A stretch of DNA of 64,000 nt from Cryobacterium sp. GrIS_2_6. Its GTDB lineage: Bacteria; Actinomycetota; Actinomycetes; Actinomycetales; Microbacteriaceae. Below, one piece after another: positions 2,416 through 37,250 of this stretch. The stretch covers positions 1,798,001 to 1,862,000 of the forward strand of contig NZ_JAXCHP010000001.1 of assembly GCF_035984545.1 (NCBI RefSeq), given 5' to 3'. The position numbers and the translations under genes are program-made. Under the pieces are notes generated by a model, which did not search any database, was not told the DNA's origin, and saw nothing but the letters and a program-made list of their open reading frames with translations. Within the stretch, counting starts at the first letter, position 1; every line of letters begins with the position of its first letter.

Positions 2416-2614
2416 GAGTCTCCGGTTCCGGGGACTCTTCGTAGGGCCCACCGGGATCGAAGTTATGAATACGCGCTTGCCGGAGGCTATCACTGGGCTG
2501 TGAATACGCCGTAAAACGGTAGATCTGTCTGACGGCCATCGGCTGGGCAGTCTCGTTTCCAAGCTGATCACAATCACTGCGGGCCACACTCTGCCGCTGG
2601 CGTACGCTGGCGGC

Positions 2615-4096: not shown

Positions 4097-4142
4097 ATCG
4101 TCGGTATGCCGAGCTCAGAACGACGTTTCACCCGCTTTCGCG
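4082..4142. terminator. Long perfect inverted repeat spanning the maltokinase stop codon
   Basis: CGCGAAAGCGGGTGAA (4082-4097) is repeated exactly inverted at 4127-4142, giving a 16-bp stem with a 29-nt loop. The left arm contains the TGA stop of the maltokinase gene, and the right arm lies 10 bp from the end of the convergent acyl-CoA synthetase gene. Position between convergent genes suggests a bidirectional terminator, though there is no T tract. Confidence 0.5.
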
Positions 4143-4152
4143 GGAGGGCGGA

Positions 4153-5907
4153 TCAGCTCTTCGGCGAACGCTTGAGCTCGGGGAACTGGTCGTCGCGCCA
4201 TTCCTCCGGAAGCCGGAGCTGCTGCACTGCGGCATCGTTCTCGCGCGCCCGCAGCTCGACCCTGCGGATCTTGCCTGAGCTCGTCTTGGGCAGTTCGAAG
4301 AACTCGATGCGCCGGACCCGCATGTACGGCGGCAACCCGTTGCGGGCGTGACGCAGCACGGCGAGAGCAGTCGCGCTGTCGGGTGCCCAGCCGGCTGCGA
4401 GGTGGATGTACGCCTTAGCGATGTTGAGGCGGGTGTCGTCGGGGGCGGGGACGACGGCGGCCTCGGCGACGGCGGGGTGTTCGAGCAGCACACTTTCGAC
4501 CTCGAACGGGGAGACCTTGTAATCGGAGGACTTGAAGATGTCATCCGTGCGGCCGATGAAGGTGATGTAGCCGTTGTCGTCCCTGGTGGCGACGTCGCCC
4601 GTGTGGAAGTAGCCATCCCGGAGCGCGGCCTGGGTCCTGACCGGGTCGCCGTGATACCGGGCCATCAGGTTGACGGCGGGCTCGGCGAGGTCGAGGCAGA
4701 TCTCGCCCTCGTCTGCGACGCCGCCCGTGATCGGATCGACGAGGGTGATCGCGACGCCGGGCAGGGGCAGGCCCATGGACCCGGCCTTGAGGACGGACCC
4801 CGGCACGTTGCCGACGATGGCCGTCGTCTCGGTCTGGCCGTACCCGTCGCGGATCGTGAGCCCCCAGGCACGCTGGATCTGGCTGATCACCTCGGGGTTG
4901 AGCGGTTCACCCGCTGAGAGGATCTCGCGGAGGCCGACCGGCTTCTCGCCCACATCGGACTGGATCAGCATCCGCCACACCGTCGGCGGCGCACAGAACG
5001 TTGTGACCTTGGCGCGGTGCAGCTGGGCGGTGAGCGCCTGCGGGTCGAAGCGGCCGTAGTTGTAGACGAAGACGGTGGCCTCGGCGATCCAGGGCGAGAA
5101 GAAGCTGCTCCAGGCGTGCTTGCCCCAGCCCGGCGAGCTGATGGCGAGGTGCACGTCGCCGGGACGAAGGCCGAGCCAGTACATCGTGGAGAGATGGCCG
5201 ACGGGGTACGAGGTCTGAGTGTGCACGACCATCTTGGGCTTGCTCGTGGTCCCCGAGGTGAAGTAGATGAGCGACGGGTCGTCCGAACCGACGGCCACGG
5301 GAACGGGCGCCGTGGAAAGCAGGGCGGCGTCGGCGTAGTGAGCCCAGCCGGGAACCGTGCCGCCGACACAGATGCGCCGGAAATCGCCGTCGATCTCCGC
5401 GAACTTGGCGGCGTCACCCGCGTTCGCGATGACGCAGTCCACCTCGCCGCGCTGCACGCGGTCGGCGAGGTCGCCGGCGGCGAGCACGGTCGATGTCGGG
5501 AGGATCACGGCGCCGATCTTCATGATGCCGAGCATGAGCTCCCAGAGTTCGACCTGGTTGCCGAGCATGAGCATCACGTGATCGCCCTTGCCGACGCCCT
5601 GCTGGGTGAGCCAGGCCGCGACCTGGTTGGAGCGTGCGGACATCTCCGCGAAAGTGACCTTCAGCTCGTGGCCGTCCTCCTCGACGATCCACAGGGCGAT
5701 GTTGTCGTTGCCGGCCGCGATCACGTCAAACCAGTCGACGGCCCAGTTGAATGACGCGCCGACATCCGGCCAGCGGAATTCCGCAGCGGCACGGGCGTGG
5801 CCGTCCCAGAGGCGCAGCAGCTGATCGCGGGCGGCACGAAAATTGGAGGTACTCGTCGGAAAAGTCACTTCTCCATCATCCTCACTCACAAATGCCTGTA
5901 ACGGCAT
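4153..5907 (-). CDS. AMP-forming acyl-CoA synthetase (AMP-binding family)
   Basis: About 584-aa ANL-superfamily ligase that activates a carboxylic acid with ATP and transfers it to CoA. Visible motifs: P-loop YFTSGTTSKPKMV, A5 motif DGYGQTET, hinge FHTGDVATRDDNGYITFIGR, and the C-terminal catalytic lysine context KTSSGKIRR. The sequence resembles acetyl/medium-chain type ligases more than FadD, but the acid is unknown. The frame is open to 5949; ATG at 5907 is used here, and a GTG at 5889 is an alternative. A palindromic operator-like element lies just upstream. Confidence 0.87.
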   Translation of the reverse strand: MPLQAFVSEDDGEVTFPTSTSNFRAARDQLLRLWDGHARAAAEFRWPDVGASFNWAVDWFDVIAAGNDNIALWIVEEDGHELKVTFAEMSARSNQVAAWLTQQGVGKGDHVMLMLGNQVELWELMLGIMKIGAVILPTSTVLAAGDLADRVQRGEVDCVIANAGDAAKFAEIDGDFRRICVGGTVPGWAHYADAALLSTAPVPVAVGSDDPSLIYFTSGTTSKPKMVVHTQTSYPVGHLSTMYWLGLRPGDVHLAISSPGWGKHAWSSFFSPWIAEATVFVYNYGRFDPQALTAQLHRAKVTTFCAPPTVWRMLIQSDVGEKPVGLREILSAGEPLNPEVISQIQRAWGLTIRDGYGQTETTAIVGNVPGSVLKAGSMGLPLPGVAITLVDPITGGVADEGEICLDLAEPAVNLMARYHGDPVRTQAALRDGYFHTGDVATRDDNGYITFIGRTDDIFKSSDYKVSPFEVESVLLEHPAVAEAAVVPAPDDTRLNIAKAYIHLAAGWAPDSATALAVLRHARNGLPPYMRVRRIEFFELPKTSSGKIRRVELRARENDAAVQQLRLPEEWRDDQFPELKRSPKS

Positions 5908-5948
5908 GCGTCCGGAAACACGCCGCGGCGCGTTCCGGGGGCAACCCA

Positions 5949-5990
5949 CACCCGGATGTGGTTAACCACACGGGTCGCCCCATCCGGGTG
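5949..5990. promoter_or_regulatory. Nested palindromes upstream of the acyl-CoA synthetase gene
   Basis: TGTGGTTAACCACA (5957-5970) is a perfect 14-bp palindrome of the TGGT-N-ACCA kind bound by many GntR-family regulators. The 10-mer CACCCGGATG (5949-5958) and its exact inverse CATCCGGGTG (5981-5990) partly overlap and flank it. Placement about 50 bp upstream of the synthetase start, in the gap to the divergent glycosyltransferase, suggests an operator. No regulator gene is adjacent. Confidence 0.4.
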
Positions 5991-6106
5991 ACAGGGCGGG
6001 CGGTCCCCTCCGGCCTCGGGTAGCTTCGTGCACGTCAACACCGACAGTCTCGACGTAGCGTCTCCGGTTCCAGTGTGGGACGTTCGATTTCACCCCGGGG
6101 GCACAG

Positions 6107-7639
6107 ATGGTTACCTTCTTCGTCATTTTCATTCTTGTTGTGGGAATCAATACCTTGCTCTGGACCACGGTCGGTCTCATCCGCGCCGTGGTCGAAAGCA
6201 CCCGCCGCCGGTCGCCCGATCGATCGCAGGACCCGCTGATCTCCGCGGACGAGGTCGCGATCCTGGTCGCCGCCCACGACGAAGAACAAGTGATCGCCGC
6301 GACCATCGGTTCCGCAACCGGCCAGGTGCCCGTCGGGCACGTCTTCGTCGTTTCGGACGCCTCCGCAGACCGGACCGCGGACCTCGCGAGAGCGAGCGGC
6401 GCGAACGTGCTCGAACTCGAGTCGAATCATGGAAAGGCTGGCGCGCTCGTCGCGGCAATCGACCATTTCGAACTGGCACGCCGTTTCCCGGTCGTGGTGC
6501 TCCTCGACGCGGACACGGTACTTGCCCCCGACTACCTATGGACCGGCCTGCCCTGCTTCCAGGATCCGGGGGTCGTCGCGGTTGCAGCGTGTGCGTCGAC
6601 GATCGCGGATCCTCCCCCCGCGACGATGATGGGCCGATTCCTGGTCGCATACCGGGAACGTTTCTACGTCATGGTGCAGTACCTGCTCAAGTACGGTCAG
6701 GCCGCCAGGCTCGCGAACGTGATCTCGATCGTTCCCGGTTTCGCGAGCATGTACCGCAGCCGGGTCCTCGGAAGCATCGACATCGATCCTCCCGGGCTCG
6801 CGATCGAGGACTTCAACATGACGTTCGAAGTGCACGCCCGCAAGCTCGGCCGGATCGCATTCCACCCCTCGATCGCGAGAGCCTCGACCCAGGATCCGGA
6901 CAACCTCCACGACTACACCCGGCAGCTCCAGCGTTGGACCCTGGGGTTCTGGCAGACGCTGCGCCGCCACGGATTCCGGCTCGGCTGGTTCTGGGGCGCG
7001 CTGGCGCTCCACGTGTTCGAGCTCGTGACGAGCAGTGTGATGATGCTGCTCTTCCTGCCGCTGCTCGTCGTGTCGGTCGGTGCGGTCATCTGGGAGGCGA
7101 CGTCGACGGACCCGTCCGGCATCGCCACGCGGCTGACGAACGCGGTTCCGCCGACCCTGCTCCTGCTCGGCGTGCTCGTGCCCGATTACGTGTTGACCGT
7201 GCTCGTCGTCGCCGTCACCCGCCGGCCGAGCTATCTGCTGCTCGGGTTCGCCTTTCCCCTCGTGCGTGTGGTCGACGCCGCGATCTGCCTGGCGACCCTT
7301 CCCCAGGCATTCCTGACGCCGTCGAGCGGACGCTGGACGAGTCCCGAACGCCGCGTCACCGTGGCGCCCGTGCGGCACGCGAAGCTCGTGCCGCCGGAGA
7401 CGTCAGTGCCCGAAGAGACGTCAGTGCCCGAAGAGACGTCAGTGCCCGAAGAGACGTCAGTGCCCGAAGAGACGTCAGTTCCGCTGAACCGGCCGCTCGT
7501 ACCCGACGAAGCGATAGCGGATGCCGGTCCTCGAGACCGTCCATTCAGAAGCGTGGGCACGCGTCCACTCCCCGTCAACAGCGGGGGCCCTCGTGTCGCC
7601 GGGCACGGCGAGGTCCAGCTCGGTGACCTCGAGTCGTGA
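6107..7639 (+). CDS. Membrane-bound processive glycosyltransferase, family GT2
   Basis: 510-aa inner-membrane enzyme that would polymerise or transfer sugar from a nucleotide sugar across the membrane. One N-terminal helix (residues 3-27) is followed by the GT-A domain with the full processive signature: D in VVSDASADRT, DAD in LLDADT, ED in AIEDFNMTF, and QLQRW. Four or more C-terminal helices follow (about residues 290-405). The tail (residues 430-510) carries an 18-bp/6-residue tandem repeat (ETSVPE) and then 55 codons that are antisense to dihydrofolate reductase. That tail has no family resemblance and looks acquired by loss of an earlier stop. Confidence 0.85.
   Translation: MVTFFVIFILVVGINTLLWTTVGLIRAVVESTRRRSPDRSQDPLISADEVAILVAAHDEEQVIAATIGSATGQVPVGHVFVVSDASADRTADLARASGANVLELESNHGKAGALVAAIDHFELARRFPVVVLLDADTVLAPDYLWTGLPCFQDPGVVAVAACASTIADPPPATMMGRFLVAYRERFYVMVQYLLKYGQAARLANVISIVPGFASMYRSRVLGSIDIDPPGLAIEDFNMTFEVHARKLGRIAFHPSIARASTQDPDNLHDYTRQLQRWTLGFWQTLRRHGFRLGWFWGALALHVFELVTSSVMMLLFLPLLVVSVGAVIWEATSTDPSGIATRLTNAVPPTLLLLGVLVPDYVLTVLVVAVTRRPSYLLLGFAFPLVRVVDAAICLATLPQAFLTPSSGRWTSPERRVTVAPVRHAKLVPPETSVPEETSVPEETSVPEETSVPEETSVPLNRPLVPDEAIADAGPRDRPFRSVGTRPLPVNSGGPRVAGHGEVQLGDLES
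7397..7479 (+). repeat. 18-bp tandem repeat in the glycosyltransferase tail
   Basis: Unit GAGACGTCAGTGCCCGAA is present in four perfect copies (7397-7468) plus an 11-bp partial copy to 7479. Each unit keeps frame and encodes ETSVPE. Perfect identity points to recent expansion. The partial copy reaches the last codons of the convergent DHFR gene. Confidence 0.95.
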
Positions 7640-7984
7640 CGCGCGGGCCAGGGCCTCGCGGTAGACCTCGCCTCCGCCGATCACCCAGATCGTCGTGGCC
7701 GGATCTGTGGCTGAGGCGTCCCCGGCGAGGGCCTCGTCCACGGATCCGGCGCGTTCGGCTCCGGCAGCGGCCCAGGCGGCGTCCCTGGTGACGACGATAT
7801 TCCGTCGACCGGGGAGCGGCCGGAATCGTTCCGGGAGGGAATCCCACGTGCGACGACCCATCACGACCGTCGCGGCATCCGTCACGGCCTTGAAATGCGC
7901 GAGGTCTTCGGGAAGGTGCCAGGGTATCGACCCGGCGCTGCCGATGATCCCGTCGTGCGCCTGCGCCCAGACCAGTGCGACCAC
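7475..7984 (-). CDS. Dihydrofolate reductase
   Basis: About 169-aa enzyme reducing dihydrofolate to tetrahydrofolate with NADPH, regenerating the cofactor oxidised by the neighbouring thymidylate synthase. Conserved blocks: LVWAQAHDGIIG, IPWHLPEDLAHFK (substrate-binding acidic residue in PED), MGRRTWDSLP, RNIVVTRD, and the NADPH-binding IWVIGGGEVYREAL. Start chosen as GTG at 7984; a TTG at 8014 overlapping the thyA stop has a better ribosome site (AAGG six bases upstream) and is a real alternative. Its 3' 165 bp are antisense to the glycosyltransferase reading frame. Confidence 0.93.
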   Translation of the reverse strand: MVALVWAQAHDGIIGSAGSIPWHLPEDLAHFKAVTDAATVVMGRRTWDSLPERFRPLPGRRNIVVTRDAAWAAAGAERAGSVDEALAGDASATDPATTIWVIGGGEVYREALARASRLEVTELDLAVPGDTRAPAVDGEWTRAHASEWTVSRTGIRYRFVGYERPVQRN

Positions 7985-8003
7985 GGGAGCGTGACGGGCG
8001 GGA

Positions 8004-8813
8004 TCAGACGGCAACGGGTGCCTTGATCGCGGGGTGGTGCTGGTAACCGACGACCTCGAGGTCCTCGTACCTGTAGTCGAAGATGCTCGCGCGTTCGCCC
8101 GTGATGCGGAGCGTCGGGAGCGGATACGGGGCACGGGTCAGTTGCTCCGTGACCTGGTCGCGATGGTTGTCGTAGATGTGACAGTCCCCGCCGGTCCAGA
8201 TGAAGTCGCCGACCTCGAGGCCGGCCTGGGCGGCGACGAGGTGGGTCAGCAGCGCATAACTCGCGATGTTGAAGGGGACGCCGAGGAAGAGGTCGGCGCT
8301 GCGCTGGTACAGCTGGCAGGACAGGCGGCCGTCGGCGACGTAGAACTGGAAGAGCGCGTGGCACGGTGCGAGAGCCATCGACGGGATGTCCGCGACGTTC
8401 CAGGCCGACACGATCATGCGACGCGAATCGGGGTCTGTCTTCAGGGTCTCGATCACCTGGGCGATCTGATCGATGTGACCACCGTCCGGGGTAGGCCAGG
8501 AGCGCCACTGCACTCCGTAGACGGGACCGAGTTCTCCGGTTTCCGATGCCCACTCGTCCCAGATGCTGACGCCGTGTTCCCGGAGCCATCCGACGTTGCT
8601 CTCGCCGCGCAGGAACCACAGGAGTTCGTAGGCGATCGACTTGAAGTGCACGCGCTTCGTCGTGATGAGCGGAAAGCCCTCACGAAGGTCGAAGCGGAGC
8701 TGGGCGCCGAAGATGCTCGTGGTTCCGGTCCCGGTCCGGTCGGCTTTGGCGGTGCCCGTCGCCAGGGTGTGGCGAAGCAGGTCTTCATACGGGGTCGCGA
8801 GTGAGGTTGGCAT
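8004..8813 (-). CDS. thyA: Thymidylate synthase
   Basis: 269-aa ThyA converting dUMP to dTMP with methylene-tetrahydrofolate. The nucleophile is Cys151 in [38 protein letters not shown] and HIYDNHRDQ are the phosphate- and dUMP-binding blocks. Length is standard for the short form. It precedes dihydrofolate reductase with a start-stop gap of only about 20 bp, an arrangement that couples production and recycling of dihydrofolate. Confidence 0.97.
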
Positions 8814-8840
8814 TCGTAGCAGTTTATTTGGTGGCGCAGC

Positions 8841-9575
8841 TTATTCGGTGCCGAAGCGCCGCACGAAGGCACGCATCAGGTTCGCCGGTTGCGTCACCGT
8901 GGCCGCCGCGATGTTCGCGATGACTTCGGTCCAGGCATCCGGTTTGACATAGCCGTTGTCGCGGTAGATCCGGATGCGGGTGAGGATGCTCGCGTTGGTG
9001 AGCTCGGGGTGGAACTGGGTCGCGTAGACGTTCCGTCCGACCCGGAAGGCCTGGACCGGGCAGTCCTCTCCGGTGGCGAGGAGCACGGCGCCGGGCGGGA
9101 GGACCGTGCACGCCTCCTTGTGCCCGACGAAGGCCTCGAAGTCAGGCTCGAGGATACCGAACAGCGGGTCGTCGGCGCCCTCCTCCGTCAGCCGCACTCT
9201 CGTCGGGCCGGCGTCCTCCGGCCAGGTTCCGTCGACGACCCCTCCGCCGTGCGTCGTGAGCAACCCGATGCCGTAACAGGCTCCGAGAAAGGGAAAATCA
9301 CGGGCGACGACGAGGTCGAGGAGCGACTGGAGTTCCCGTTCGACCCGGAGCTGGACGGCGGACTTCGTCGCCTCGGGGTCGCTGGCGTTGAAGGGGCTGC
9401 CACCGACGATGATGCCGGAGTAATCGTCCAGCCGGATCGGCGGCAGCGGGGCCGCCTCGAGCCTGACCCGGTGCAGGTCCGCGGGGGTGAGGCCGCCTGC
9501 GCTCAGGAAACCCTCATACTCGTCGTCGGCGGCTTCGTCCTCCGGACGGCTGGCCAAGAGCAGGAAGGGCTTCAC
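8841..9575 (-). CDS. Class I glutamine amidotransferase-like protein
   Basis: 244-aa single-domain GATase of the GMP-synthase-like group. The triad is visible: nucleophile Cys in LGACYGIGLL and the His/Glu pair in ATQFHPEL. GIIVGGSPFNASD is the oxyanion-side loop. Such stand-alone domains hydrolyse glutamine or gamma-glutamyl compounds (for example in polyamine catabolism), but the acceptor is unknown here. It ends 27 bp from the thyA start on the same strand. Confidence 0.83.
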   Translation of the reverse strand: MKPFLLLASRPEDEAADDEYEGFLSAGGLTPADLHRVRLEAAPLPPIRLDDYSGIIVGGSPFNASDPEATKSAVQLRVERELQSLLDLVVARDFPFLGACYGIGLLTTHGGGVVDGTWPEDAGPTRVRLTEEGADDPLFGILEPDFEAFVGHKEACTVLPPGAVLLATGEDCPVQAFRVGRNVYATQFHPELTNASILTRIRIYRDNGYVKPDAWTEVIANIAAATVTQPANLMRAFVRRFGTE

Positions 9576-9623
9576 GCCGCAATGATACGCGGTACGGCGC
9601 CCATTCCGGTGCGCGTTTCCCGA

Positions 9624-10481
9624 TCAGTACAGGAACGACCTCGCGAAGGTGTTCACGTCGATGTTGACGCCGTTGAAGACCCGTTCAAAATGCTGCTGAA
9701 CACCGACTCGGAGATTCCCGGACGCGTTCCAGCCACCGAAGGGAATCGGTGGCGGCGAGAGGAGATCGACGGGATCGTCAGGGAGGCCTGCCAGGGCAGT
9801 CGAGCCCGGCTGGACGGGCACGGCATCCCAGAGGGCGACGTCCGAGAACTCCGTCGTTCCCGCGCCCATGATGTCGTCCCACATCCGCGCGCCGGTGTAC
9901 ACGACGGGGCGTACTCCGGTGGATTGGACGCCCGTGATCATGTCGCGGGTGAGCGGCGGGCCGCCCGTTTCGATGTCGAGGGCGAAGAACTGGAGTCGGA
10001 TGCGGAAGGAGCCCGTCGCCGCGATCCCCTCCTGCCAGCAGCGCGGATCTCTGGTGTACGCGGCGATCGCGAGACCGGCGTCGATGGCCATCGCGAGCTG
10101 CGCCTGGGTGCGGGCGAGAGGCGTGCACGTGCCGAACTCGGTGGAGCTGAGGATGTAAAGCCGGAACCCGGCTTCGTATGCCCGCACGAACCAGGCAGGA
10201 TCGGAAATCGGATTGTCCGAATCCAGCGCCCTGATCGCCGGTGACGGTTGGGCCCGCGACGGCTGGGCCGGTGCCGTCGGCACCGGAGTGGGGACCGCGG
10301 TCTGGGAGGCCGCTGGGATACCGGAAGGGGCGGATGCCGCCGGGTCCTGTCGAATCGCTCCTGCCACCTGGATGGCCGCGAGGGGAAGGCCCACTGCAAG
10401 GATCACCAGCAACGCGGCCCCGACGATGGGAGGCGCAACCCGCCCCTTTCCCGGGTGTCTCGTGACGGAAAGCTTGCGCAT
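9624..10481 (-). CDS. Secreted or anchored GH25-like domain protein
   Basis: About 285 aa. A basic N-terminus and a hydrophobic helix (IVGAALLVILAVGLPLAAI) form a signal anchor, followed by an Ala/Pro/Ser-rich linker. The globular part has the layout of GH25-like TIM barrels: RALDSDNP at strand 1, acidic LQFFALDIETG, then VRPVVYTGARMW and DVALWDA. The DIE acidic pair resembles the GH25 catalytic site, so muramidase-like action on peptidoglycan is possible but unproven. The ATG at 10481 is chosen because it opens the signal anchor; the frame is open to 10601. Confidence 0.6.
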   Translation of the reverse strand: MRKLSVTRHPGKGRVAPPIVGAALLVILAVGLPLAAIQVAGAIRQDPAASAPSGIPAASQTAVPTPVPTAPAQPSRAQPSPAIRALDSDNPISDPAWFVRAYEAGFRLYILSSTEFGTCTPLARTQAQLAMAIDAGLAIAAYTRDPRCWQEGIAATGSFRIRLQFFALDIETGGPPLTRDMITGVQSTGVRPVVYTGARMWDDIMGAGTTEFSDVALWDAVPVQPGSTALAGLPDDPVDLLSPPPIPFGGWNASGNLRVGVQQHFERVFNGVNIDVNTFARSFLY

Positions 10482-10699
10482 TCGCTCAGTGTGCACCGGC
10501 ATCACGGCGAAGAAAAGGGACCCACCGGGGACACGTGCATGCTGTCGGACGTGCCCTCGGACCCCGATGGATGTCTGGGGGGGCGTACAGTGAGGCAGCA
10601 CCGCTCAGTCTCAGGTTCCAATGTCGCCCTGATGAAACGGCTGCCGCCGGGGATTCCTTTCCCCAAGCTCTTGAACACATCACTGGGGGAATGGCTTTC

Positions 10700-11041
10700 A
10701 TGCGCGACCTTGCACCAACTATTTACCGGCAGCGGCTTGTCATCGAGGCCTACCCCGCTGAACCGATCAGCGCACCGCAGATCACGGACTACCTGTCAGG
10801 GCTTGCCCCGGTGCTCGACATGAAAGGCCTGATCGAACCCGTCACGCATCGCAGCGACCTGTACGGCTGGGCCGGGTGGACTCACTGGGAAACGTCGGGG
10901 GCGCATTTCTACGCGTGGGAACAACCGGTGCTCTTCTACAGTGTCGACATCTACACCTGCAAGCCGTTCGACCCCCTCGTGGCCGTCGAATACACCACGC
11001 GTTTCTTCGGGAGTGCCAGCGCCGAATACAAGGAGTTTTAG
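10700..11041 (+). CDS. SpeD-like (S-adenosylmethionine decarboxylase fold) small protein
   Basis: About 113 aa resembling bacterial SpeD. RQRLVIEAYPAE matches the first strand of the family and YSVDIYTCKPFDPLVAVEY matches the AVDVFTCG...P..A block that ends the SpeD core. The usual ESH processing site is not recognisable: the region reads HWETSGAHFYAWE, so the pyruvoyl-forming serine is either displaced or lost. A GGGGGA Shine-Dalgarno lies 9 bp before the ATG at 10700 (an ATG at 10691 is the alternative). The stop TAG overlaps the GTG of the next gene by one base, so the two are translationally coupled. Confidence 0.6.
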   Translation: MRDLAPTIYRQRLVIEAYPAEPISAPQITDYLSGLAPVLDMKGLIEPVTHRSDLYGWAGWTHWETSGAHFYAWEQPVLFYSVDIYTCKPFDPLVAVEYTTRFFGSASAEYKEF

Positions 11042-11868
11042 TGCCGACCCGCGACACCGATACCGAGATCGGCGCCGAGGTGTTCAGCCCCCGATACGAC
11101 CTGAGCGATGCCGAGCTCGAGGATCTCACCGTGCGGCTCCTCGCCTCGCGCACGCGTGACCTCCCGGAGCACTACCGGCTGGTCGCGATCGAGGTCGACG
11201 GCCGGAGCCCGTTCTCCAATGTCGGCCGCCACGTGGAACGTGTCGTCTTCGAGGCGACGTTCGGCAACGATGCCGCGCAGATGACGGACGAGTACGGCGC
11301 GTACGAGGGTACGAGCACATTTTTCATCTCCATCGACAGGGACACCTGCACGCCGAGCGGGGTGCTGCGGATCATCGAGGATTCCCCCCATGGGCTCAAG
11401 AGCCTCAACGATGCCGCCCAGGAGCCGTTCAATCTGGAACTCGACGAGGCGTTCCGCTTTCACGCGATCACCGATCCGACCGAGATCTGGGACATCGGCA
11501 CCGTCGCCGTCCTCCCCGACTACCGTCGCGGCGAAGCAGCGGTGAGCGTGCAGCTCTACCGCGCCATGTACCTCTCCGCGCTCGTGCACAGGATCAAGCA
11601 CATTGTGTCCATCGTCGACGACCGCCCACTCCGCAAGATGCGGGACTTTCTGGGCATCCCGTTCGTGCCTCTTGCGGACACTCACCCCGGACCGTACCTC
11701 GGCTCGAAGAAGAGCCACGCCGTCTACGGGTACGTGCCGCACTTCCTGCCGAAGGCGCGGGCGCACCGCGATACCATGCGCGGCCTCCTCGTCCGCAACG
11801 CCCTGCAGCGCCTTGTCGACGGCACGGAAGACGACTCGATCAGCCTCGACGTCCAGCCCGACGCCTGA
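11041..11868 (+). CDS. GNAT-fold acyltransferase, autoinducer-synthase-like
   Basis: 275-aa protein starting at GTG with a strong AAGGAG five bases upstream, inside the end of the SpeD-like gene. The segment from STFFISIDRDTC through VLRIIEDSP, EIWDIGTVAVLPDYRRG and LVHRIKHIVSIVDDRPLRKM follows the order of LuxI/FeeM-like N-acyltransferases: a beta-strand core, a conserved E/D and a post-strand R-R/G acyl-carrier segment. The substrate is unknown. Known AHL synthases use S-adenosylmethionine as amine donor, which makes the coupled SpeD-like partner notable. Confidence 0.6.
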   Translation: MPTRDTDTEIGAEVFSPRYDLSDAELEDLTVRLLASRTRDLPEHYRLVAIEVDGRSPFSNVGRHVERVVFEATFGNDAAQMTDEYGAYEGTSTFFISIDRDTCTPSGVLRIIEDSPHGLKSLNDAAQEPFNLELDEAFRFHAITDPTEIWDIGTVAVLPDYRRGEAAVSVQLYRAMYLSALVHRIKHIVSIVDDRPLRKMRDFLGIPFVPLADTHPGPYLGSKKSHAVYGYVPHFLPKARAHRDTMRGLLVRNALQRLVDGTEDDSISLDVQPDA

Positions 11869-11871
11869 ACG

Positions 11872-12297
11872 TCACTCGGGCGCTGTGCTGCCCGATCCAG
11901 AGATATTGACCAGCCAGCTCACGCCGAACGGGTCCACGAGCATCCCGAAGCTGTCTCCCCACGGTGCCCTCGCAAGCGGCTGGAGCACGGTCCCGCCCGC
12001 CGACAGTTTCTCGAAGTAGCCGCTCAGTTCCGCCGCGTCGTCCCCGCTGAGCGAGACCGAGACAGCGGTGCCCGGTGTCAGGTCCATGCTGTTCGGCGTG
12101 TCCGCCGCCATCAGGACCATCCCGCTGTTCGTCGTCAAAACGGAGTGCATGATCTTGTCGTCCTCCGCAGGATCCTCACTGGCGTGGAGTTCCGCGAAGG
12201 TACTGCGCGTGACCGTGCCGCCGAAGACCGACTCGTACAGGTCCATGGCCGCCCTGGCCGAATCACGGAACGAGAGATAGGGGTTGAGGGTTGTCAT
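11872..12297 (-). CDS. VOC family (glyoxalase/PhnB-like) protein
   Basis: 141-aa protein of the vicinal-oxygen-chelate fold, PhnB/DUF1428-like subgroup. The N-terminal LNPYLSFRDSARAAMDLYESVFGG and C-terminal APWGDSFGMLVDPFGVSWLVN are diagnostic. Members include metal-dependent enzymes and drug-binding proteins; no substrate can be inferred. The start at 12297 gives the standard family length; the open frame extends to 12489. Convergent with the acyltransferase, with 3 bp between stops. Confidence 0.85.
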   Translation of the reverse strand: MTTLNPYLSFRDSARAAMDLYESVFGGTVTRSTFAELHASEDPAEDDKIMHSVLTTNSGMVLMAADTPNSMDLTPGTAVSVSLSGDDAAELSGYFEKLSAGGTVLQPLARAPWGDSFGMLVDPFGVSWLVNISGSGSTAPE

Positions 12298-12438
12298 CTG
12301 AGACCTCCAGACCGGGGCGTGCCCGCCGTCGGGCCCGCGCTTCCGAGACATTATCGACCCCGGAACGGCAAAAGACGAGGCGGCGGATCCAGTCCTCGCA
12401 CCTGTGAATGGCCTCGTGTGAGGCACTAGCCTTGCTGA

Positions 12439-13335
12439 ATGGAACTCCGCCAGCTCGAACATTTCGTGATCGTCGCCGAGGAACGCCACTTCACCCGGGC
12501 CGCCGAGATCCTGCAGATCTCACAATCCGGTCTGTCGGCTTCCGTTCGGGCGCTCGAAAGCGAGCTCGGGACGTCACTCTTCATCCGCAGCACCCGCAGC
12601 GTCGAACTCTCGGTCGCCGGGCAGGCTTTTCTGGTCGAGGCGTTGCGCACGCTCGCGAGCGCCACCGCGGCCCAGAACGCCGTTGCGGCCGTGCGCGGCC
12701 TCATGCTGGGGAGCCTGACCGTCGGCGCCGAGCCGTGCCTGGGCTCGGTGGACCTTCCGGGAGAGCTCGCCCGCTTCCGCATGACGCATCCAGGGGTCGA
12801 CGTACGTCTCAGGCACGCCGGATCGCTCGAGCTCATCGAGGGCGTCGCGAACGGCCGCACGGACGTCGCCCTTGTCGTTTCGGTCGGCGACCAGACTCCC
12901 GGCATCCGACTCAGTCCGCTCAGCACCCAGCGGCTCATCGTGCTCTGCCATCCCGATCACGCGTTCGCGGCAAGAGGCTCCGTCGACCTCGCATCCCTGC
13001 ATGCCGAGTCACTCGTCGGGTTCCCCGCAGGCTGGGGCGCACACGTCCTCGCCCGCCGCGGTTTCGCCGCTGCCGGGTTCGATTACCGGGCTGCGCTCGA
13101 GGTCAACGACGTGCATCCGATGCTCGACCTCGTCGGTTACAACCTCGGTGTCGCGATCGTGCCGGAGAGTTTCGCAGCGAAGCGCCCTGACCTCCTGCGA
13201 GCCATTCAGATCGAGGATCCGATGCCGCCCTGGACGGCCGCGGTCGCCGTGGCGGACGAGCCCAGCCCGGCCGCCACGGCGTTCCTCACCCAGCTCGCGG
13301 GGATCAGCCCAGCAGCGCCAGTTCCTCAGGCGTGA
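12439..13335 (+). CDS. LysR-family transcriptional regulator
   Basis: 298-aa regulator with an N-terminal winged helix-turn-helix (MELRQLEHFVIVAEERHFTRAAEILQ..., residues 1-60) and a periplasmic-binding-like effector domain (about 90-290). Two alpha/beta subdomains are recognisable from LTVGAEPCLGSVDLP and FPAGWGAHVLAR. It is divergent from the VOC gene and convergent with an aldo/keto reductase, overlapping that gene's 3' end by 32 bp. The target is unknown. Confidence 0.9.
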   Translation: MELRQLEHFVIVAEERHFTRAAEILQISQSGLSASVRALESELGTSLFIRSTRSVELSVAGQAFLVEALRTLASATAAQNAVAAVRGLMLGSLTVGAEPCLGSVDLPGELARFRMTHPGVDVRLRHAGSLELIEGVANGRTDVALVVSVGDQTPGIRLSPLSTQRLIVLCHPDHAFAARGSVDLASLHAESLVGFPAGWGAHVLARRGFAAAGFDYRAALEVNDVHPMLDLVGYNLGVAIVPESFAAKRPDLLRAIQIEDPMPPWTAAVAVADEPSPAATAFLTQLAGISPAAPVPQA

Positions 13336-14173
13336 GCGTGATGCCGGCAGCGTGAACCGAATCCCGGATGCTCTCCGGCCGCGAGGCGCCGGGGATCGGG
13401 ATGACCACAGGGGACTTCGCAAGGTGCCAGGCCAGGCAGACGACCTGCGGGCTGACGCCGCGGTCTGCTGCTACCTGCTGGAACGGCGCAAAGCGTTCGC
13501 CGAGTCGGGACGCAGAGGAGATCCCACCGAGCGGGCTCCATGGGATGAAGGCGATTCCGAGTTCGGTGCAGAGCTCGAGCTCCGGTTCGCTGCTGCGGAA
13601 CGCAGGAGAGAACTGGTTCTGCACGCTCGCGAGGCGTCCGCCGAGCAGTTCGCGAGCGAGCTTGATCTGATCGACGTTCGCATTGGAGATGCCGGCGAGG
13701 CGGATCGTGCCGGCGTCAAGGAGCTCGACGAGCGCCCCGATGGAATCGGCGTACGGCACCGCCGGGTCCGGCCTGTGGAACTGGTAGAGGCCGATCGCGT
13801 CGCCGCCGAGCCGCGCGAGTGAGGCCTCTGCGGCCTTCTTGAGGTACTCAGGGCGGCCGTCGACATACCAGGTGCCGTCACCGGGGCGCAGGTGCCCGCC
13901 CTTCGTCGCGACGAGCACGTCGCTGGTGTCCCCGCCCCACGACGCTATCGCTCCTGCGATGAGGGTTTCGTTGTGGCCGACCTCGTCGGCATGCAGGTGG
14001 TACGCGTCCGCGGTGTCGAACAGGGTCACGCCCTCGTCGAGGGCTGCGTGGATCGTCGCGACTGACCTGGCCGCATCCGGTCGTCCTTCGATCGACATCG
14101 GCATTCCGCCGAGTCCGATCGCGCTCACGGTTCGGTCGGCGATCATTCGGGTCTGCATCATTCGGGTCGGCAT
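13304..14173 (-). CDS. Aldo/keto reductase
   Basis: 289-aa NADPH-dependent oxidoreductase of the AKR TIM-barrel family. Catalytic Asp/Tyr sit in LFDTADAYHLHADEVGHNE, the Lys in VLVATKGG and the His in GLYQFHRPDP; the cofactor site ends in PIPGASRPESI. The ATG at 14173 is preceded by AAGGAA at good spacing. It follows another aldo/keto reductase by 62 bp on the same strand, a likely two-gene operon. Substrate unknown. Confidence 0.9.
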   Translation of the reverse strand: MPTRMMQTRMIADRTVSAIGLGGMPMSIEGRPDAARSVATIHAALDEGVTLFDTADAYHLHADEVGHNETLIAGAIASWGGDTSDVLVATKGGHLRPGDGTWYVDGRPEYLKKAAEASLARLGGDAIGLYQFHRPDPAVPYADSIGALVELLDAGTIRLAGISNANVDQIKLARELLGGRLASVQNQFSPAFRSSEPELELCTELGIAFIPWSPLGGISSASRLGERFAPFQQVAADRGVSPQVVCLAWHLAKSPVVIPIPGASRPESIRDSVHAAGITLTPEELALLG

Positions 14174-14235
14174 GGTTTCCTTCATTGAGCGGTTGGCTGG
14201 GCTGGCGGTATCTGCAGTATTCGTTGCGGGGCTGG

Positions 14236-15207
14236 TCACCAGGCGTAGTCCTCAGGGGCCGGCTTGTGCCCGGGGAAGATCTCATCGAGCCGGGCCAGAG
14301 CTGCGGCATCGAGGGTGACGTCGAGCGCCCGGAGACCGTCGTCGAGCTGGGCCTGGGTGCGCGGCCCGATGATCGGCGCCGTCACACCCGGCTGGTGCAG
14401 GAGCCAGGCCAGGGCCACGTCTCCCGGCTTGTGTCCCAGGTCTGCGGCGAAGTCCTCGAACGCCTGGATGGCCGGTCGGTGCGCGGCAAGCGTCTCGGCG
14501 GATCGCCCTTCGAGGCGCCGTCTGCCGTCGCGCTCCTTGCCGAGCACTCCCCCGAGGAGGCCGCCCTGTAGCGGGGACCAGGCGATCACGCCGAGCCCGT
14601 TCGCTCGTGCCGCCGGGAGCACTTCGAGTTCGAGGTCTCGCGTGAGGAGGTTGTAGATCGACTGCTCACTCACCAGACCGGTGAAGTTGCGACGTCGCGC
14701 TTCCGCCTGGGCCGTCGCGATGTGCCAGCCGGCGAAGTTGCTGCTGCCCGCGTAGAGGATCTTTCCCTGGGCGACGGCCGTCTCCATGGCCTGCCAGATC
14801 TCGTCCCAGGGCGTCTCCCTGTCGATGTGGTGGAACTGGTAGATGTCGATGTAGTCCGTCTGCAGTCGACGGAGGCTCGCGTCGAGGGCGCGACGGATGT
14901 TGAGGGCCGAGAGCCTGCCGTTGTTCGGCCAGTCCGAGGTCGTCCCGTAGAGCTTGGTGGCGAGGACGGTGCGCTCCCGGCGATCGCCACCGCGCGCGAA
15001 CCACCGGCCAACGAGGGACTCGGTGGCCCCGGGCCCTCGCTCGCCGCCGTAGACGTTCGCCGTGTCGAAGTAGTTGATTCCCGAGGCGAGCGCCGAGTCC
15101 ATGATGGAGTTCGCCTCCGGTTCCGGCGTGAGCGGCCCGAAGTTCATGGTGCCGAGGCACAGTCGCGAAACGGAGAGACCAGAGCGACCGAGGTGTGTGT
15201 ATTCCAT
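14236..15207 (-). CDS. Aldo/keto reductase
   Basis: 323-aa AKR of the YajO/YghZ-like subgroup (MEYTHLGRSGLSVSRLCLGTMNFG). Catalytic residues are Asp/Tyr in YFDTANVYGG, Lys in VLATKLYG and His in YQFHHID; IIGPRTQAQLDDGLRAL is the nucleotide-phosphate site. GGAGG eight bases before the ATG at 15207 fixes the start. First gene of the pair with the downstream reductase; substrate unknown. Confidence 0.92.
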   Translation of the reverse strand: MEYTHLGRSGLSVSRLCLGTMNFGPLTPEPEANSIMDSALASGINYFDTANVYGGERGPGATESLVGRWFARGGDRRERTVLATKLYGTTSDWPNNGRLSALNIRRALDASLRRLQTDYIDIYQFHHIDRETPWDEIWQAMETAVAQGKILYAGSSNFAGWHIATAQAEARRRNFTGLVSEQSIYNLLTRDLELEVLPAARANGLGVIAWSPLQGGLLGGVLGKERDGRRRLEGRSAETLAAHRPAIQAFEDFAADLGHKPGDVALAWLLHQPGVTAPIIGPRTQAQLDDGLRALDVTLDAAALARLDEIFPGHKPAPEDYAW

Positions 15208-15316
15208 GACTTCAGCCTCCTCCGTGACCACTGATCTGTCCAACAGCCGTCATCGCTGTGATGGACCAGTTCGGGTTCTCAATCGCGCACCCGGAAAGCT
15301 GGGTACAGTTTCGAGC

Positions 15317-15643
15317 ATGAAACTCACCGATATCGACCCGCCCGGTCGCAGTTTTTCGCGCTGGCTCACCGAGGAGGAGATCGGACGCGTGCTCGCGAGC
15401 GATCGCGGCTGGCGACTCGCCGAGGACGGGAGTGTCGTGGCCGGAAAGCTCAGGAAGGCCCGGATCGCCGACTCCCTCGGGGACCTCGGTCGCGCCGCCC
15501 TCGCCAACCGGTGGACCGCGCGGGCCGCGGCCCCCGGAAGCGACGGCAGCGGCCCGACGCACATCATGTGGGGTGTGTTCAATGCCCGCTCCGACACGGA
15601 GATCGCCGCGGAAATCGCCGCCGGGATCGCCGCCAGGGGCTGA
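15317..15643 (+). CDS. Hypothetical protein
   Basis: 108-aa soluble protein with no domain I recognise. It begins MKLTDIDPPGRSFSRWLTEEEIGRVL, has a basic Arg/Lys middle part and ends in an alanine-rich helix (TEIAAEIAAGIAARG). Coding potential is supported by codon usage like its neighbours and by position between a divergent start and a convergent stop. Its stop codon lies in the loop of a hairpin. Confidence 0.6.
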   Translation: MKLTDIDPPGRSFSRWLTEEEIGRVLASDRGWRLAEDGSVVAGKLRKARIADSLGDLGRAALANRWTARAAAPGSDGSGPTHIMWGVFNARSDTEIAAEIAAGIAARG

Positions 15644-15659
15644 ACCAGCCTGGCGGCGA
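15627..15659. terminator. Bidirectional hairpin between convergent genes
   Basis: TCGCCGCCAGG (15627-15637) is perfectly inverted at 15649-15659, an 11-bp GC-rich stem with an 11-nt loop that contains the TGA of the 108-aa gene. The convergent Clp ATPase gene ends 17 bp further on. No T tract; assignment is by position and stem strength. Confidence 0.5.
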
Positions 15660-15675
15660 CTCCGCAGGTGAGTCC

Positions 15676-18258
15676 TTACGCGGCCAGGGGCAGCGACTGT
15701 GCCGGTGCGGATGCCGCGGCCGCGACGACGAGCGCGCCGTCCGTGACCGAGACCTCGACACCGGTACTCGCCAGCAGGTCAGAGCCGACGAGAAGGTCGG
15801 CGATCTTGTCGTCGAGTTCCCGCTGGATCACGCGCCGGAGCGGTCGGGCACCGTACTCCGGTTCGTAACCACGCGTGGCGATCCAGTCGATCGCGTCCTC
15901 GCTCACGGTCAGGGCGAAGCCCTGGGCGGCGAGCCGGGTGCGCGTCCCGGCGAGCAGCATCCGCACGATGTCGTGCAGTTGCGGCGCGTCGAGCTTGCGG
16001 AACAGCACGATCTCGTCGAGCCGGTTCAGGAACTCCGGACGCATGGCTTCGCGGAGCTTGCCCATCACCCGGTCGCGGAGCGCCTTCTCCGAGCCGAAGC
16101 CGTTGTCGGCCCCGGCATCGATCAGGGCGGTGAAGCCGAGGGCGCCGCTCCGGCTGGCGAGGAATTCGGAGCCGAGGTTTGAGGTCATGATGATGACCGT
16201 GTTCCGGAAGTCGACGGTGCGACCCTGGCCGTCGGTCAGGCGTCCGTCGTCGAGCACCTGCAACAGCAGGTTGAATACGTCGGGGTGGGCCTTCTCGATC
16301 TCGTCGAGCAGGATCACCGAGTACGGGTTCCTGCGCACGCGCTCGGTCAGCTGCCCGGCCTCGTCGTAGCCGACGTAGCCGGGAGGGGAGCCGACGAGCC
16401 GGCTCACGGTGTGCCGTTCGCCGAACTCGCTCATGTCGAAGCGCACCATCGCGCGCTCGTCGCCGAACAACGATTCGGCGAGGGCCTTGGCGAGCTCGGT
16501 CTTACCGACGCCCGTCGGCCCGAGGAACAGGAAGCTGCCGACGGGTCGGCCGGCATCGTTCATGCCGGTGCGATTGCGGCGCACCGCCTTGGCGATGAGC
16601 GTGACGGCGTCGTCCTGTCCGACGACGCGTTCGTGCAGCTCGGCCTCGAGCAGGCCGAGGCGGGAACGGTCGTCCGCGGTGAGCCGGGCGATGGGGATGC
16701 CCGTTGCGCGGGCGATCACACCGGCGATCTCGGCCTCGCCGACGACGGCCTCTGCTGCAACGGCCCGGGCGGGGTCTTCCTGGAGCTCCAGCTGCGACTG
16801 GACCGTCTCGATCTCGTCCCGGAGCCGGGAGGCCTCCTCATACTGTTCGGTGAGGACTGCGGCCCTCTTGGCGTTCTCGAGCGTCACCACGCGCGCACGC
16901 AGGGCCTCGAGGGCCGCACGGTCGGGCAGGGAGCCGAGGGTCAGGCGCAGCCGGGCACCGGCCTGGTCGATCAGGTCGATGGCCTTGTCGGGCAGGAACC
17001 TGTCGGACACGTAACGGGCGGAGAGCTCGACGGCGGCGCGCAGCGCCTCGTCGGTGTAGCGCACGCCGTGGTGATCTTCGTAGCGGCCGCGCAGCCCCGC
17101 GAGGATGCTCACCGCGTCGTCGATGCTCGGCTCGCCGACCCGCACGGTCTGGAAACGGCGTTCGAGGGCCGGGTCCTTCTCGACCTTGCGGTACTCCTTG
17201 AGGGTCGTCGCGCCGATCACGTGCAGCTCACCGCGAGCCAGCCGCGGCTTGAGGATGTTCCCGGCGTCCATGCCCCCGTCGCCGGATCCGCCGGCGCCGA
17301 CAACGGTATGCAGCTCGTCGATGAAGATCACGAGCTCGCCGCTGTGTGCGCTGATCTCGTCCATGGTCTTGCCGAGGCGTTCCTCGAAGTCGCCGCGGTA
17401 CCTGGTCCCGGCGACCATCGCCGCGAGGTCGAGTGCGACGACGCGCTTGCCGCGCAGTTGCTCGGGCACGGTTCCCGCCACGATGGCCTGCGCGAGCCCT
17501 TCGACGACGGCGGTCTTGCCGACGCCGGCCTCTCCGATCAGAACCGGGTTGTTCTTGGTGCGCCGGGAGAGGATCTCGATCGTCTGTTCGATCTCGTCGG
17601 CACGGCCGATCACCGGGTCGAGTTTCCCGTCGCGGGCCCGGGCCGTGAGGTCGGTGCCGTAGGTGTCGAGCATGGGCGTCTCCGAAGCGGATGCCTGGGC
17701 AGGGGCCTGGCTCGTCGCATCCGCTTGCGGCTCGCGTGCACCGGCCTGGAGCGATTCCTGGGTCACGCCGGCCGCGGCGAGGACCTGGCCGGCCGGGGAG
17801 TCCTCGTTCACCACGAAGGCGAAGAAGAGATGTTCGGGGTCGATGTAGGTCGACCCGAAGGCGCGAGCGATCTGGTGCGCGTCGAGGAGGGCACGCTGGG
17901 CGGATGGGGTGAGTCCCGGCGTTGCGTCTCCGGTCGGGGCGGAGCGCTCCGGCAGGCGCTGCTCGGCGGCCAGGGCGAGGGCCGCGGGGTCTGCGCCGGC
18001 GTTCCGGATCGCCTGGGCCGCCGGTTCGCGCAGGACGAGGACCCGGAGGATGTGCAGGACGTCGACGTGGGAGTGCCCGTGGTCGACCGCGTACTGGGCG
18101 GCCTCGGCGAGCACCTCGTGGGTGCGGCGGCTGAGCAGCCGGGTGATGTCGATCGGGCGCCCTGCTGGCGCGGCGCCCTGCTGGCCCTGCAGGTACCGGG
18201 CGATGAACTCGTCGAACGAACCGTTGCCGGAATCCGCGGGACCGAAGAATGTAGGCAC
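15676..18258 (-). CDS. ClpB/ClpC-family AAA+ ATPase
   Basis: 860-aa Hsp100 unfoldase. Order: short N-terminal extension, two Clp-N repeats (about residues 35-150), Gln/Ala linker, AAA domain 1 with Walker [10 protein letters not shown] (243-251) and Walker [10 protein letters not shown], a short middle region with a UVR-like motif ([17 protein letters not shown]) rather than the long ClpB coiled coil, AAA domain 2 with [12 protein letters not shown] and [10 protein letters not shown], and a D2-small domain. A hydrophobic LGF sits in the loop after TSNLGSEFL, where ClpC/ClpA carry the ClpP-docking tripeptide, so a protease partner is plausible. A HAIR box directly upstream predicts heat-shock control. 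Confidence 0.92.
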
Positions 18259-18278
18259 GAGACCTCCTGATCTTGAAA

Positions 18279-18299
18279 CTTGAGTGCTATTGACTCAAC
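18279..18299. promoter_or_regulatory. HAIR box (HspR operator)
   Basis: CTTGAGT, 7 bp, ACTCAAC: matches the actinobacterial HAIR consensus CTTGAGT-N7-ACTCAAG at 13 of 14 defined positions. It lies 21 bp upstream of the Clp ATPase start codon, a position suited to repression by HspR. Consensus from established knowledge; match seen directly. Confidence 0.8.
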
Positions 18300-18390
18300 T
18301 CAACGTCAGGCCGTGGGTTTCATTCCCGCCTCATGCTGGGAAACCCCCGGTTACGCGGTCCGCGAACGGAGTGCGAACAGGCCGAGAGGT

Positions 18391-18729
18391 TCAGGCCCCG
18401 AGGATGCCGCGGGCCACGACGACGACGACGGTCACAGCCGCGACGCCCAGCGCGATCAGGACCAGGCCCCGGCCGCGGACGCCGGCGGGCATGACCCGGA
18501 GCGCGCGCATCGAGTATGCGAGCCCGACGAGGACAGCGATGACTCCCCAGAACGGGAGCACGAGTGCGAGGACGAATCCGGCGAGGGTGATCCAGAATCC
18601 CAGCGAGCGCCCCGGTGTCCTCGTCCAGTCGGCACGCGGCGCGCCGAGGGCGATCAGTCGGTTGTCCTGCATGTTCGCACGCGGATCGTCCACTGTCAGC
18701 CCCCGTTGTATCGAATACCAGTCTGCCAC
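18391..18729 (-). CDS. Small integral membrane protein
   Basis: 112-aa protein with a hydrophilic N-terminal third containing TPGRSLGFW, then two or three membrane helices (SLGFWITLAGFVLALVLPFWG; VIAVLVGLAYS; LVLIALGVAAVTVVVVVA). No known domain assigned; the layout resembles DUF4190-like proteins. The start is GTG at 18729 without a Shine-Dalgarno; an internal ATG (MQDNRLIALG, 18672) is an alternative. A fourfold 13-bp repeat lies directly upstream. Confidence 0.65.
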   Translation of the reverse strand: MADWYSIQRGLTVDDPRANMQDNRLIALGAPRADWTRTPGRSLGFWITLAGFVLALVLPFWGVIAVLVGLAYSMRALRVMPAGVRGRGLVLIALGVAAVTVVVVVARGILGA

Positions 18730-18732
18730 GCG

Positions 18733-18784
18733 GCGCGATCGTTCAGCGCGATCGTTCAGCGCGATCGTTCAGCGCGATCGTTCA
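18733..18784. repeat. Four perfect 13-bp tandem repeats
   Basis: Unit GCGCGATCGTTCA is repeated four times without a mismatch, each copy holding the palindrome CGATCG. The array fills the 62-bp gap between the start of the 112-aa membrane protein and the end of the upstream MDMPI-like gene, where the promoter or leader of the membrane protein should be. Confidence 0.95.
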
Positions 18785-18791
18785 GCGGCGC

Positions 18792-19535: not shown

Positions 19536-19559
19536 TCCCCCATTCTCGCAGGGAACCGA

Positions 19560-31190: not shown

Positions 31191-31442
31191 CTACGCGAAG
31201 AAGATCGGGTCGAACTCGCGGAGGGTGTTGCCGTTCTTGGGTGCTTCCGTCAGGAACACGTTGAAGCCGTATGGCAAGGGCGCGTCGTCGTCGTCGATGA
31301 ACCAGAGGTCGGTGACGCGGTAGGCCACTCCGCCGGTGTAGATGCCGTCCCCGATTTCGGGAAGAGTGTCGCCATCGGCGATCTCGAGGAATTCCTTGTT
31401 CGGCAGCACATAGGTGGTCGGTACAGTCTGTTCTTCATCCAT
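31191..31442 (-). CDS. Hypothetical acidic protein in jetD position
   Basis: 83-aa acidic protein, [25 protein letters not shown]... ending in REFDPIFFA, with alternating beta-like segments (GGVAYRVTDLWFIDDDD; YGFNVFLTEAP). No domain recognised. Its ATG overlaps the last 8 bp of the SMC-like jetC gene, so it is translated from the same message. It stands where jetD is normally found but is far too small to be that nuclease. Function unknown. Confidence 0.65.
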   Translation of the reverse strand: MDEEQTVPTTYVLPNKEFLEIADGDTLPEIGDGIYTGGVAYRVTDLWFIDDDDAPLPYGFNVFLTEAPKNGNTLREFDPIFFA

Positions 31443-37134: not shown

Positions 37135-37250
37135 AGTGGTAGTTCCCTTCCCGGACCCCTTCAACCGTAACGGGCGCGAGATTCGATTCTGTCCAGGGTC
37201 CGGTCGTAGGGGCCTGTGCGAGGCAGGAACGGGACGGGCACGGGGGCCGG

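Follow-up and report, generated by a model that had tools for sequence, protein, structure and literature searches.

A window of 64,000 nucleotides from Cryobacterium sp. GrIS_2_6 (a genome of 4.34 Mb in two contigs; positions below are those within the window) contains a gene for a small protein resembling the polyamine-pathway decarboxylase SpeD, overlapped by a gene for a GNAT-type acyltransferase. That these two genes form a module is well supported: the pairing is conserved, both proteins diverge together and both genes are under purifying selection. Outside Cryobacterium the acyltransferase gene moreover adjoins a gene for a GGDEF-EAL protein. The pair, which is scattered across actinobacteria, may be part of a signalling system that has yet to be described.

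Four overlapping genome samples were searched, each including our own genome: order (198 genomes), class (296), phylum (296) and genus (57). In the order sample the SpeD-like gene is present in 4/198 genomes and the GNAT gene in 8/198, and all four SpeD-like genes adjoin a GNAT gene. The class sample yields 8/296 and 10/296, with both genes in seven genomes and adjacent in each of these. The pairing is beyond chance (hypergeometric 2.6e-11 for the class-sample overlap, a value computed with our own genome included and as if relatives were independent of each other, which is not the case). The functional coupling and co-occurrence proposed in the initial annotation agree with the adjacent GNAT gene found in 7 of the 8 class-sample genomes that carry the SpeD-like gene. 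The exception (G309, locus L045, 960-1313) has a divergent SpeD-like gene with the motif DSGISLYVW and no GNAT gene. Second SpeD-like copies without an adjacent GNAT gene occur in G362 (L043) and G432 (L041), and the GNAT gene is found without a SpeD-like gene in G216, G423 and G353, in the last case at a contig end. Judged by eye, an EAL-type gene precedes the SpeD-like gene of L045 by approximately 20 bases, which makes another neighbourhood combining SpeD and cyclic diguanylate (c-di-GMP), and the gene after the SpeD-like copy of L043 resembles an oxidoreductase of the old-yellow-enzyme type.

Across the phylum sample the SpeD-like profile matches 6/296 genomes: the module is present in our own genome, G726 and G637, G718 has a lone gene, and the matches in G586 and G731 are SpeDs linked to SpeE. 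The GNAT profile matches 8/296, with strong matches (E <1e-50) in our own genome, G726 and G637; the five weak ones (E 1e-8 to 1e-3) were excluded from all counts of GNAT loci. Within the genus, 9/57 genomes carry the SpeD-like gene, and both genes are found at 9/9 Cryobacterium loci (eight named ones plus the window); these are separate counts, in which strains were not matched one to one. At one locus (L024, Cryobacterium breve) the GNAT frame is shifted next to an intact SpeD-like gene, which may reflect a pseudogene or a sequencing error. Recurrence across Microbacteriaceae was initially suggested as a check, and the pair is not widespread there: besides the 9/57 genus genomes with the SpeD-like gene, the 13 same-family genomes listed for the order sample give no match other than our own.

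The Cryobacterium loci fall into two clades (the window with L023-L025, and L026-L030) that hold the pair in different surroundings. DNA similarity between the clades at E <=1e-10 is confined to 10699-11846 within the compared part of the window (1501-20000), i.e. to the pair only. The genes that precede the pair at the Cryobacterium loci were considered as parts of the module and rejected, since they vary between loci (by eye: histidine kinase/response regulator, ABC transporter, thyA). The distances among SpeD-like proteins correlate with those among their GNAT partners at r = 0.96 for 17 loci (L024 left out) and at r = 0.89 for the nine non-Cryobacterium loci, both values being inflated by related loci; none of 5000 permutations reaches the observed correlation. 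The closest named relatives are Cryobacterium species, up to 99% identical. For the 12 listed of the 28 pairs within Cryobacterium, the ratio of nonsynonymous to synonymous substitution rates (dN/dS) ranges over 0.07-0.21 in the SpeD-like gene and over 0.07-0.42 in the GNAT gene, showing purifying selection on both.

In agreement with the family first assigned to it, the SpeD-like protein carries VDIYTCKPFDP and matches PF02675 (AdoMet_dc) with 34.1 bits, above the cut-off of 25. It does not reach the SpeD equivalog TIGR03330 (13.3 bits, cut-off 75.65). Comparison of a profile of the SpeD-like family (15 sequences) with one of canonical SpeD (4 sequences) using hhalign gives a probability of 97.6 and an E-value of 3.3e-12. 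The protein is also predicted to adopt the SpeD fold: starting from an AlphaFold model (predicted local distance difference test, pLDDT, 71; predicted template modelling score, pTM, 0.70), Foldseek yields five PDB chains at E <=0.001, all of them prokaryotic SpeD (template modelling score, TM, 0.68-0.70) and the closest being Thermotoga SpeD. Structure prediction thus did not contradict the initial assignment. Because sequence searches of the PDB with the protein or its profile gave mainly chance matches to RNA-binding proteins (SpeD at best at E 0.19-0.23, and not at all with the single sequence), these were not relied on, and the assignment to SpeD rests on Pfam, hhalign and the fold search. 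In the tree, 25 SpeD-like proteins, here called the SG-Tyr subfamily, are split from five canonical SpeDs (SpeE-linked, phage and Thermotoga maritima) with a support of 100/98 and with long-branch warnings. Members encoded on plasmids of Acaryochloris, Nostoc and Halioglobus are among them, so the subfamily extends beyond Actinomycetota. On these plasmids (L064, L065 and L066, respectively) the Halioglobus copy is followed by what by eye is a Sir2-like gene. No relatives were found in viral contigs, which were scanned with two patterns from the 15-sequence alignment.

Residues were counted in an alignment of 30 rows, consisting of the window protein, 24 relatives and five canonical rows (two SpeE-linked actinobacterial SpeDs, two phage SpeDs and T. 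maritima SpeD). Both the pyruvoyl-forming serine and the catalytic cysteine are conserved in 30/30 rows. In the window protein these are Ser66 and Cys87, aligning with Ser63 and Cys83, and together with Gly67, Tyr71 and Trp73 they are invariant in 25/25 SpeD-like proteins from actinobacteria, cyanobacteria and one gammaproteobacterium. The cleavage site reads T65-S66-G67 (TSG) against ESH in canonical SpeD, which changes the Glu before and the His after the serine. Also altered is His68, which is Tyr in 25/25 SpeD-like proteins and His in 5/5 canonical rows. Ser55 has given way to Ala in all 20 core members, and Glu62 to Thr in 19 of them and to Asn in the other. In 24/25 members the C-terminal residue is Phe (22) or Tyr (2); a terminal Phe is seen also in the copies without a GNAT neighbour at L041 and L043. 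Judged by these residues, the SpeD-like proteins are a distinct subfamily in which the pyruvoyl serine and the cysteine are kept, His68 is replaced by Tyr and Gly follows the serine.

The initial annotation saw no recognisable ESH site. The motif indeed departs from the canonical one, but the cleavage serine itself is kept, and the further suggestion that decarboxylation may have been lost with the site is not supported in that form, in view of the serine and cysteine present in 25/25 proteins, which leave room for pyruvoyl chemistry. For T. maritima SpeD, activation is reported to persist in an S55A mutant, and Glu62 to be able to serve as a base (PMC3975893). Ser63, His68 and Cys83 are given as essential for self-processing (PMC10407285). 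Two SpeDs that by eye adjoin a SpeE-like gene (L070 and L071, in G731 and G586) have the motif ETSSITGH, in which Thr replaces Glu and His68 is kept. Because the serine and the cysteine are kept across such distances, a pyruvoyl enzyme whose processing is altered seems more likely to us than an empty binder; this reading is uncertain, since the positions of His68, Ser55 and Glu62 have changed.

A role of the SpeD-like protein in spermidine synthesis is unlikely, because the genome yielded no SpeE and the genus only one PF02675 protein. The SpeE profile TIGR00417, which matches 10/14 control genomes, has no match in our own genome, extending to the whole genome the earlier remark that no spermidine synthase is adjacent. 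The PF02675 search of the 57 genus genomes returned a single protein, which belongs to the SG-Tyr subfamily; the same search missed our own SpeD-like gene. In comparison to the class 1b SpeD of T. maritima (TM0655; 1TLU, 1TMI, 1VR7), the fold (TM 0.70), the pyruvoyl serine and the catalytic cysteine are alike, whereas His68 has become Tyr, Ser-His has become Ser-Gly, Ser55 and Glu62 are Ala and Thr (in one case Asn) in the core, the C-terminal residue is Phe or Tyr and no SpeE is found. The arginine and ornithine decarboxylases SpeDA and SpeDC are likewise SpeD homologues from genomes without a detected SpeE, which is taken in that work as a sign of a changed substrate (PMC10407285). There, Ser63, His68 and Cys83 are expected to be kept in SpeD, SpeDA and SpeDC; the diagnostic residues are Gln, Thr, Phe and Tyr for SpeDC, and for SpeDA a Pro that is not conserved (PMC10407285). 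The proteins described here keep the serine and the cysteine but have Tyr for His68, and their neighbours are GNAT and GGDEF-EAL genes, whereas the SpeDA and SpeDC clusters described there consist of polyamine genes.

The GNAT appears to be a distant member of the autoinducer-synthase/FeeM-like group, consistent with what was first proposed for it, although the profile matches are weak. The window GNAT has no Pfam match, PF00765 and PF21926 included. Out of 16 GNATs, 14 match TIGR03694 (exosortase-associated acyltransferase) at E <=1, the best at 1.6e-8; the cut-off of 111.95 bits is not reached, the window GNAT scoring 14.4 bits. FeeM (PF21926) matches two of the 16 (best E 0.0056; L015 at 16.9 bits, cut-off 27) and so does Autoind_synth (PF00765; best E 0.07; L056 at 11.3 bits, cut-off 24). 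With a GNAT profile, the sole PDB match at E <=1 is LasI (E 0.3). The LuxI and FeeM families thus resemble the GNATs weakly, and a difference is that the conserved neighbour is here a GGDEF-EAL gene. The idea that SpeD-linked GNATs form a single clade was dropped, as SpeD-like presence is scattered on the GNAT tree (five changes against a mean of 6.9 after shuffling, with 35/500 shuffles as low).

At non-Cryobacterium loci the GNAT gene adjoins, in 17/17 cases from 16 genomes, a gene for a protein with a hydrophobic N-terminus and GGDEF and EAL domains. This membrane neighbour, a type of protein that synthesises or degrades the messenger c-di-GMP, points to signalling and was overlooked in the initial annotation. 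The gap between both genes is -72 to +50 bases in the 16/16 loci measured, and they overlap in the 17th (L068). Their orientation is mostly convergent, with overlapping genes on the same strand in L044 and L057. A hydropathy scan indicates about ten hydrophobic segments (the raw estimates of 10-18 count overlapping segments twice). Pfam confirms GGDEF and EAL in 4/4 neighbours scanned and finds no known sensor domain in these four. In the neighbours listed (all except those of L057 and L067) GGDEF is intact in 15/15 and EAL in 14/15, reading EGL in L020. The SpeD-like gene is part of 9/17 loci and missing in seven, so that the GNAT and GGDEF-EAL genes form the most widespread core, often joined by the SpeD-like gene as a third member. 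The remaining locus, L058, is at a contig end, where SpeD-like presence cannot be judged by neighbourhood; its GNAT has no match in the plasmid collection. In L068 the three genes are in a different order and the GNAT is recognised by profile alone (hhalign 92.7, E 4.4e-7). In the reading proposed below, the GGDEF-EAL neighbour would be the likely receptor outside Cryobacterium. A separate observation in our own genome (L077, C1 near 220780) concerns two tandem GGDEF-EAL genes, one of them with a relative of the module's sensor (63 bits).

We propose, with a confidence that stays somewhat short of an even chance, that the pair is a co-inherited cassette for signal synthesis. The SpeD-like protein would most likely form, or be helped to form, a pyruvoyl group and would decarboxylate an amino acid, probably not SAM (S-adenosylmethionine) for spermidine, yielding an amine. 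Onto this amine the GNAT, as a distant relative of autoinducer synthases, FeeM and exosortase-associated acyltransferases, would transfer an acyl chain; an N-acylated amine is suggested because an acyltransferase is coupled to a decarboxylase-type protein. In other Actinomycetota the adjacent GGDEF-EAL protein would sense the product, to be read out as c-di-GMP, and in Cryobacterium the receptor gene would not be adjacent to the pair. The arrangement recalls RpfF/RpfR, because a synthase-type gene adjoins a GGDEF-EAL gene (17/17 other loci, 0/9 in Cryobacterium). RpfF has the crotonase fold, whereas the synthase here would be a GNAT; moreover, the sensor of about ten segments has no Pfam domain (four scanned) and there is an extra SpeD-like gene. 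In RpfF/RpfR the gene of the diffusible signal factor (DSF) synthase is adjacent to that of its c-di-GMP receptor, a PAS-GGDEF-EAL protein (PMC6361424). It is rather unlikely, though worth stating, that the module represents in full a new form of cell-cell signalling in Actinomycetota, with a novel Tyr-for-His type of pyruvoyl decarboxylase, a new class of N-acyl-amine signals and a GGDEF-EAL sensor, the synthesis half being a mobile two-gene cassette in Cryobacterium.

Several observations weigh against the proposed cassette. SpeD-like genes occur without a GNAT gene at L041, L043, L045, L069 and the three plasmid loci, and no SpeD-like gene was found in the genomes of the 7/17 GNAT/GGDEF-EAL loci lacking one, so an acceptor derived from the SpeD-like protein is not always needed. 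The self-processing residues Ser55, Glu62 and His68 of T. maritima are all altered in the window protein (A58, T65 and Y71). No GNAT match attained a curated cut-off where bits are listed, and the AlphaFold model of the GNAT (eight Cryobacterium sequences) has a pLDDT of 38 and was not used for a fold search. No GGDEF-EAL gene stands beside the pair in the nine Cryobacterium loci. Finally, GGDEF-EAL relatives matching the sensor profile are present in 8/60 family genomes including our own (55-84 bits); the sensor is therefore not unique to the module, and finding it does not prove a receptor.

Part of this evidence can be read in other ways. The SpeD-like protein might stay unprocessed and act as a pseudoenzyme: binding SAM or some similar ligand, it would supply or regulate the GNAT, comparable to the trypanosome prozyme for S-adenosylmethionine decarboxylase (AdoMetDC). 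This reading resembles the one offered in the initial annotation. We rate this as an unlikely but serious alternative: the equivalents of His68, Ser55 and Glu62 are all altered in the 20-member core, LuxI enzymes use SAM, and Foldseek reports a weak likeness to AdoMetDC/prozyme heterodimers (ranks 11, 22 and 29; E 0.026-0.13). A pure binder would, however, need neither the pyruvoyl serine nor the catalytic cysteine, which are among the five residues invariant in 25/25 proteins, and T-S in place of E-S is found also in the SpeDs adjoining SpeE (L070, L071). It is somewhat less probable that the cassette serves the cell's own envelope, by making an N-acyl lipid or by modifying proteins, and that the GGDEF-EAL neighbour only regulates surface behaviour without being a receptor. 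The nearest profiles, of FeeM-like and exosortase-associated acyltransferases, do not all belong to signal makers and the Cryobacterium pair lacks a GGDEF-EAL neighbour, which would fit; the adjacency in 17/17 other loci and the overlapping same-strand genes in L044 and L057 suggest a tighter link.

Still more doubtful is that the GNAT acts as a maturation factor aiding self-cleavage of the SpeD-like protein, whose activity would then depend on acyl-CoA or acyl-ACP. The model for this is PanD/PanZ, in which a pyruvoyl-type protein has a GNAT-type partner; the decarboxylase fold of PanD is unrelated to that of SpeD, and PanZ is a small protein. PanZ is required to activate the PanD zymogen, in a CoA-dependent manner, and the C terminus of PanD is essential for binding (PMC4410942, PMC3975893). 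The altered self-processing residues and the Phe or Tyr that ends 24/25 SpeD-like chains could be accommodated in this way. On the other hand, the GNAT also occurs with GGDEF-EAL at seven loci in genomes where no SpeD-like gene was found, its profile relatives are acyl-transferring synthases, and the terminal Phe is kept in L041 and L043, where no GNAT is adjacent. That the SpeD-like protein is a conventional AdoMet decarboxylase serving spermidine synthesis, with an unrelated acetyltransferase next to it, is highly improbable and already disfavoured: membership of PF02675 would agree with it, but His68 is replaced, the genome has no SpeE match, the tree separates the proteins from canonical SpeDs and the pairing is conserved.

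The coordinates, sizes and one-base overlap (position 11041) of the two genes are as initially given (Table 1), and the ribosome site described within the first gene is located as well. It lies within the codons for the C-terminal residues KE of the SpeD-like protein and ends five bases before the GTG of the GNAT gene. A G-run precedes the ATG of the SpeD-like gene in 9/9 Cryobacterium loci.

Table 1. Features of the SpeD-like/GNAT pair, in window positions
Feature	Position	Strand	Remarks
Likely Shine-Dalgarno of SpeD-like gene	10685..10690	+	GGGGGA
SpeD-like gene, SG-Tyr subfamily of PF02675	10700..11041	+	113 amino acids; ATG 10700, TAG 11039-11041
Thr65-Ser66 codons	10892..10897	+	Position of canonical Glu62-Ser63 cleavage bond
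Tyr71 codon	10910..10912	+	Replaces canonical His68
Cys87 codon	10958..10960	+	Equivalent of catalytic Cys83
Likely Shine-Dalgarno of GNAT gene	11030..11035	+	AAGGAG
GNAT acyltransferase gene, autoinducer-synthase/FeeM-like	11041..11868	+	275 amino acids; GTG start 11041

Upstream of the pair and divergent from it lies an open reading frame of 325 amino acids (9624-10601, minus strand) without a Pfam match at 0.001, which recurs in the window-type Cryobacterium loci L023-L025. Elsewhere the window contains Wadjet-type JetA/JetB/JetC genes (31435-38772, minus strand; PADLOC E-values 8.9e-184, 1.4e-106 and 0, respectively) and a Mutator-family transposase (PF00872; 43572-44816, plus strand).

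In the open PMC literature no description of this gene combination was found among the matches listed. As far as these searches show, the SG-Tyr subfamily, with the serine kept and His68 changed to Tyr, and the conserved three-gene module are new. There is little documentation of LuxI-type small-molecule signalling in Gram-positive bacteria; a survey by InterPro domain from 2017 retrieved 11 LuxI sequences (PMC5539150). A SpeD subfamily that has the serine and lacks the processing histidine makes the minimal needs of self-processing, and possible help by a GNAT, directly testable. By combining a distant relative of LuxI-type synthases with an enzyme of c-di-GMP turnover, a conserved module would provide actinomycetes with a candidate quorum-type system that escapes profile cut-offs.
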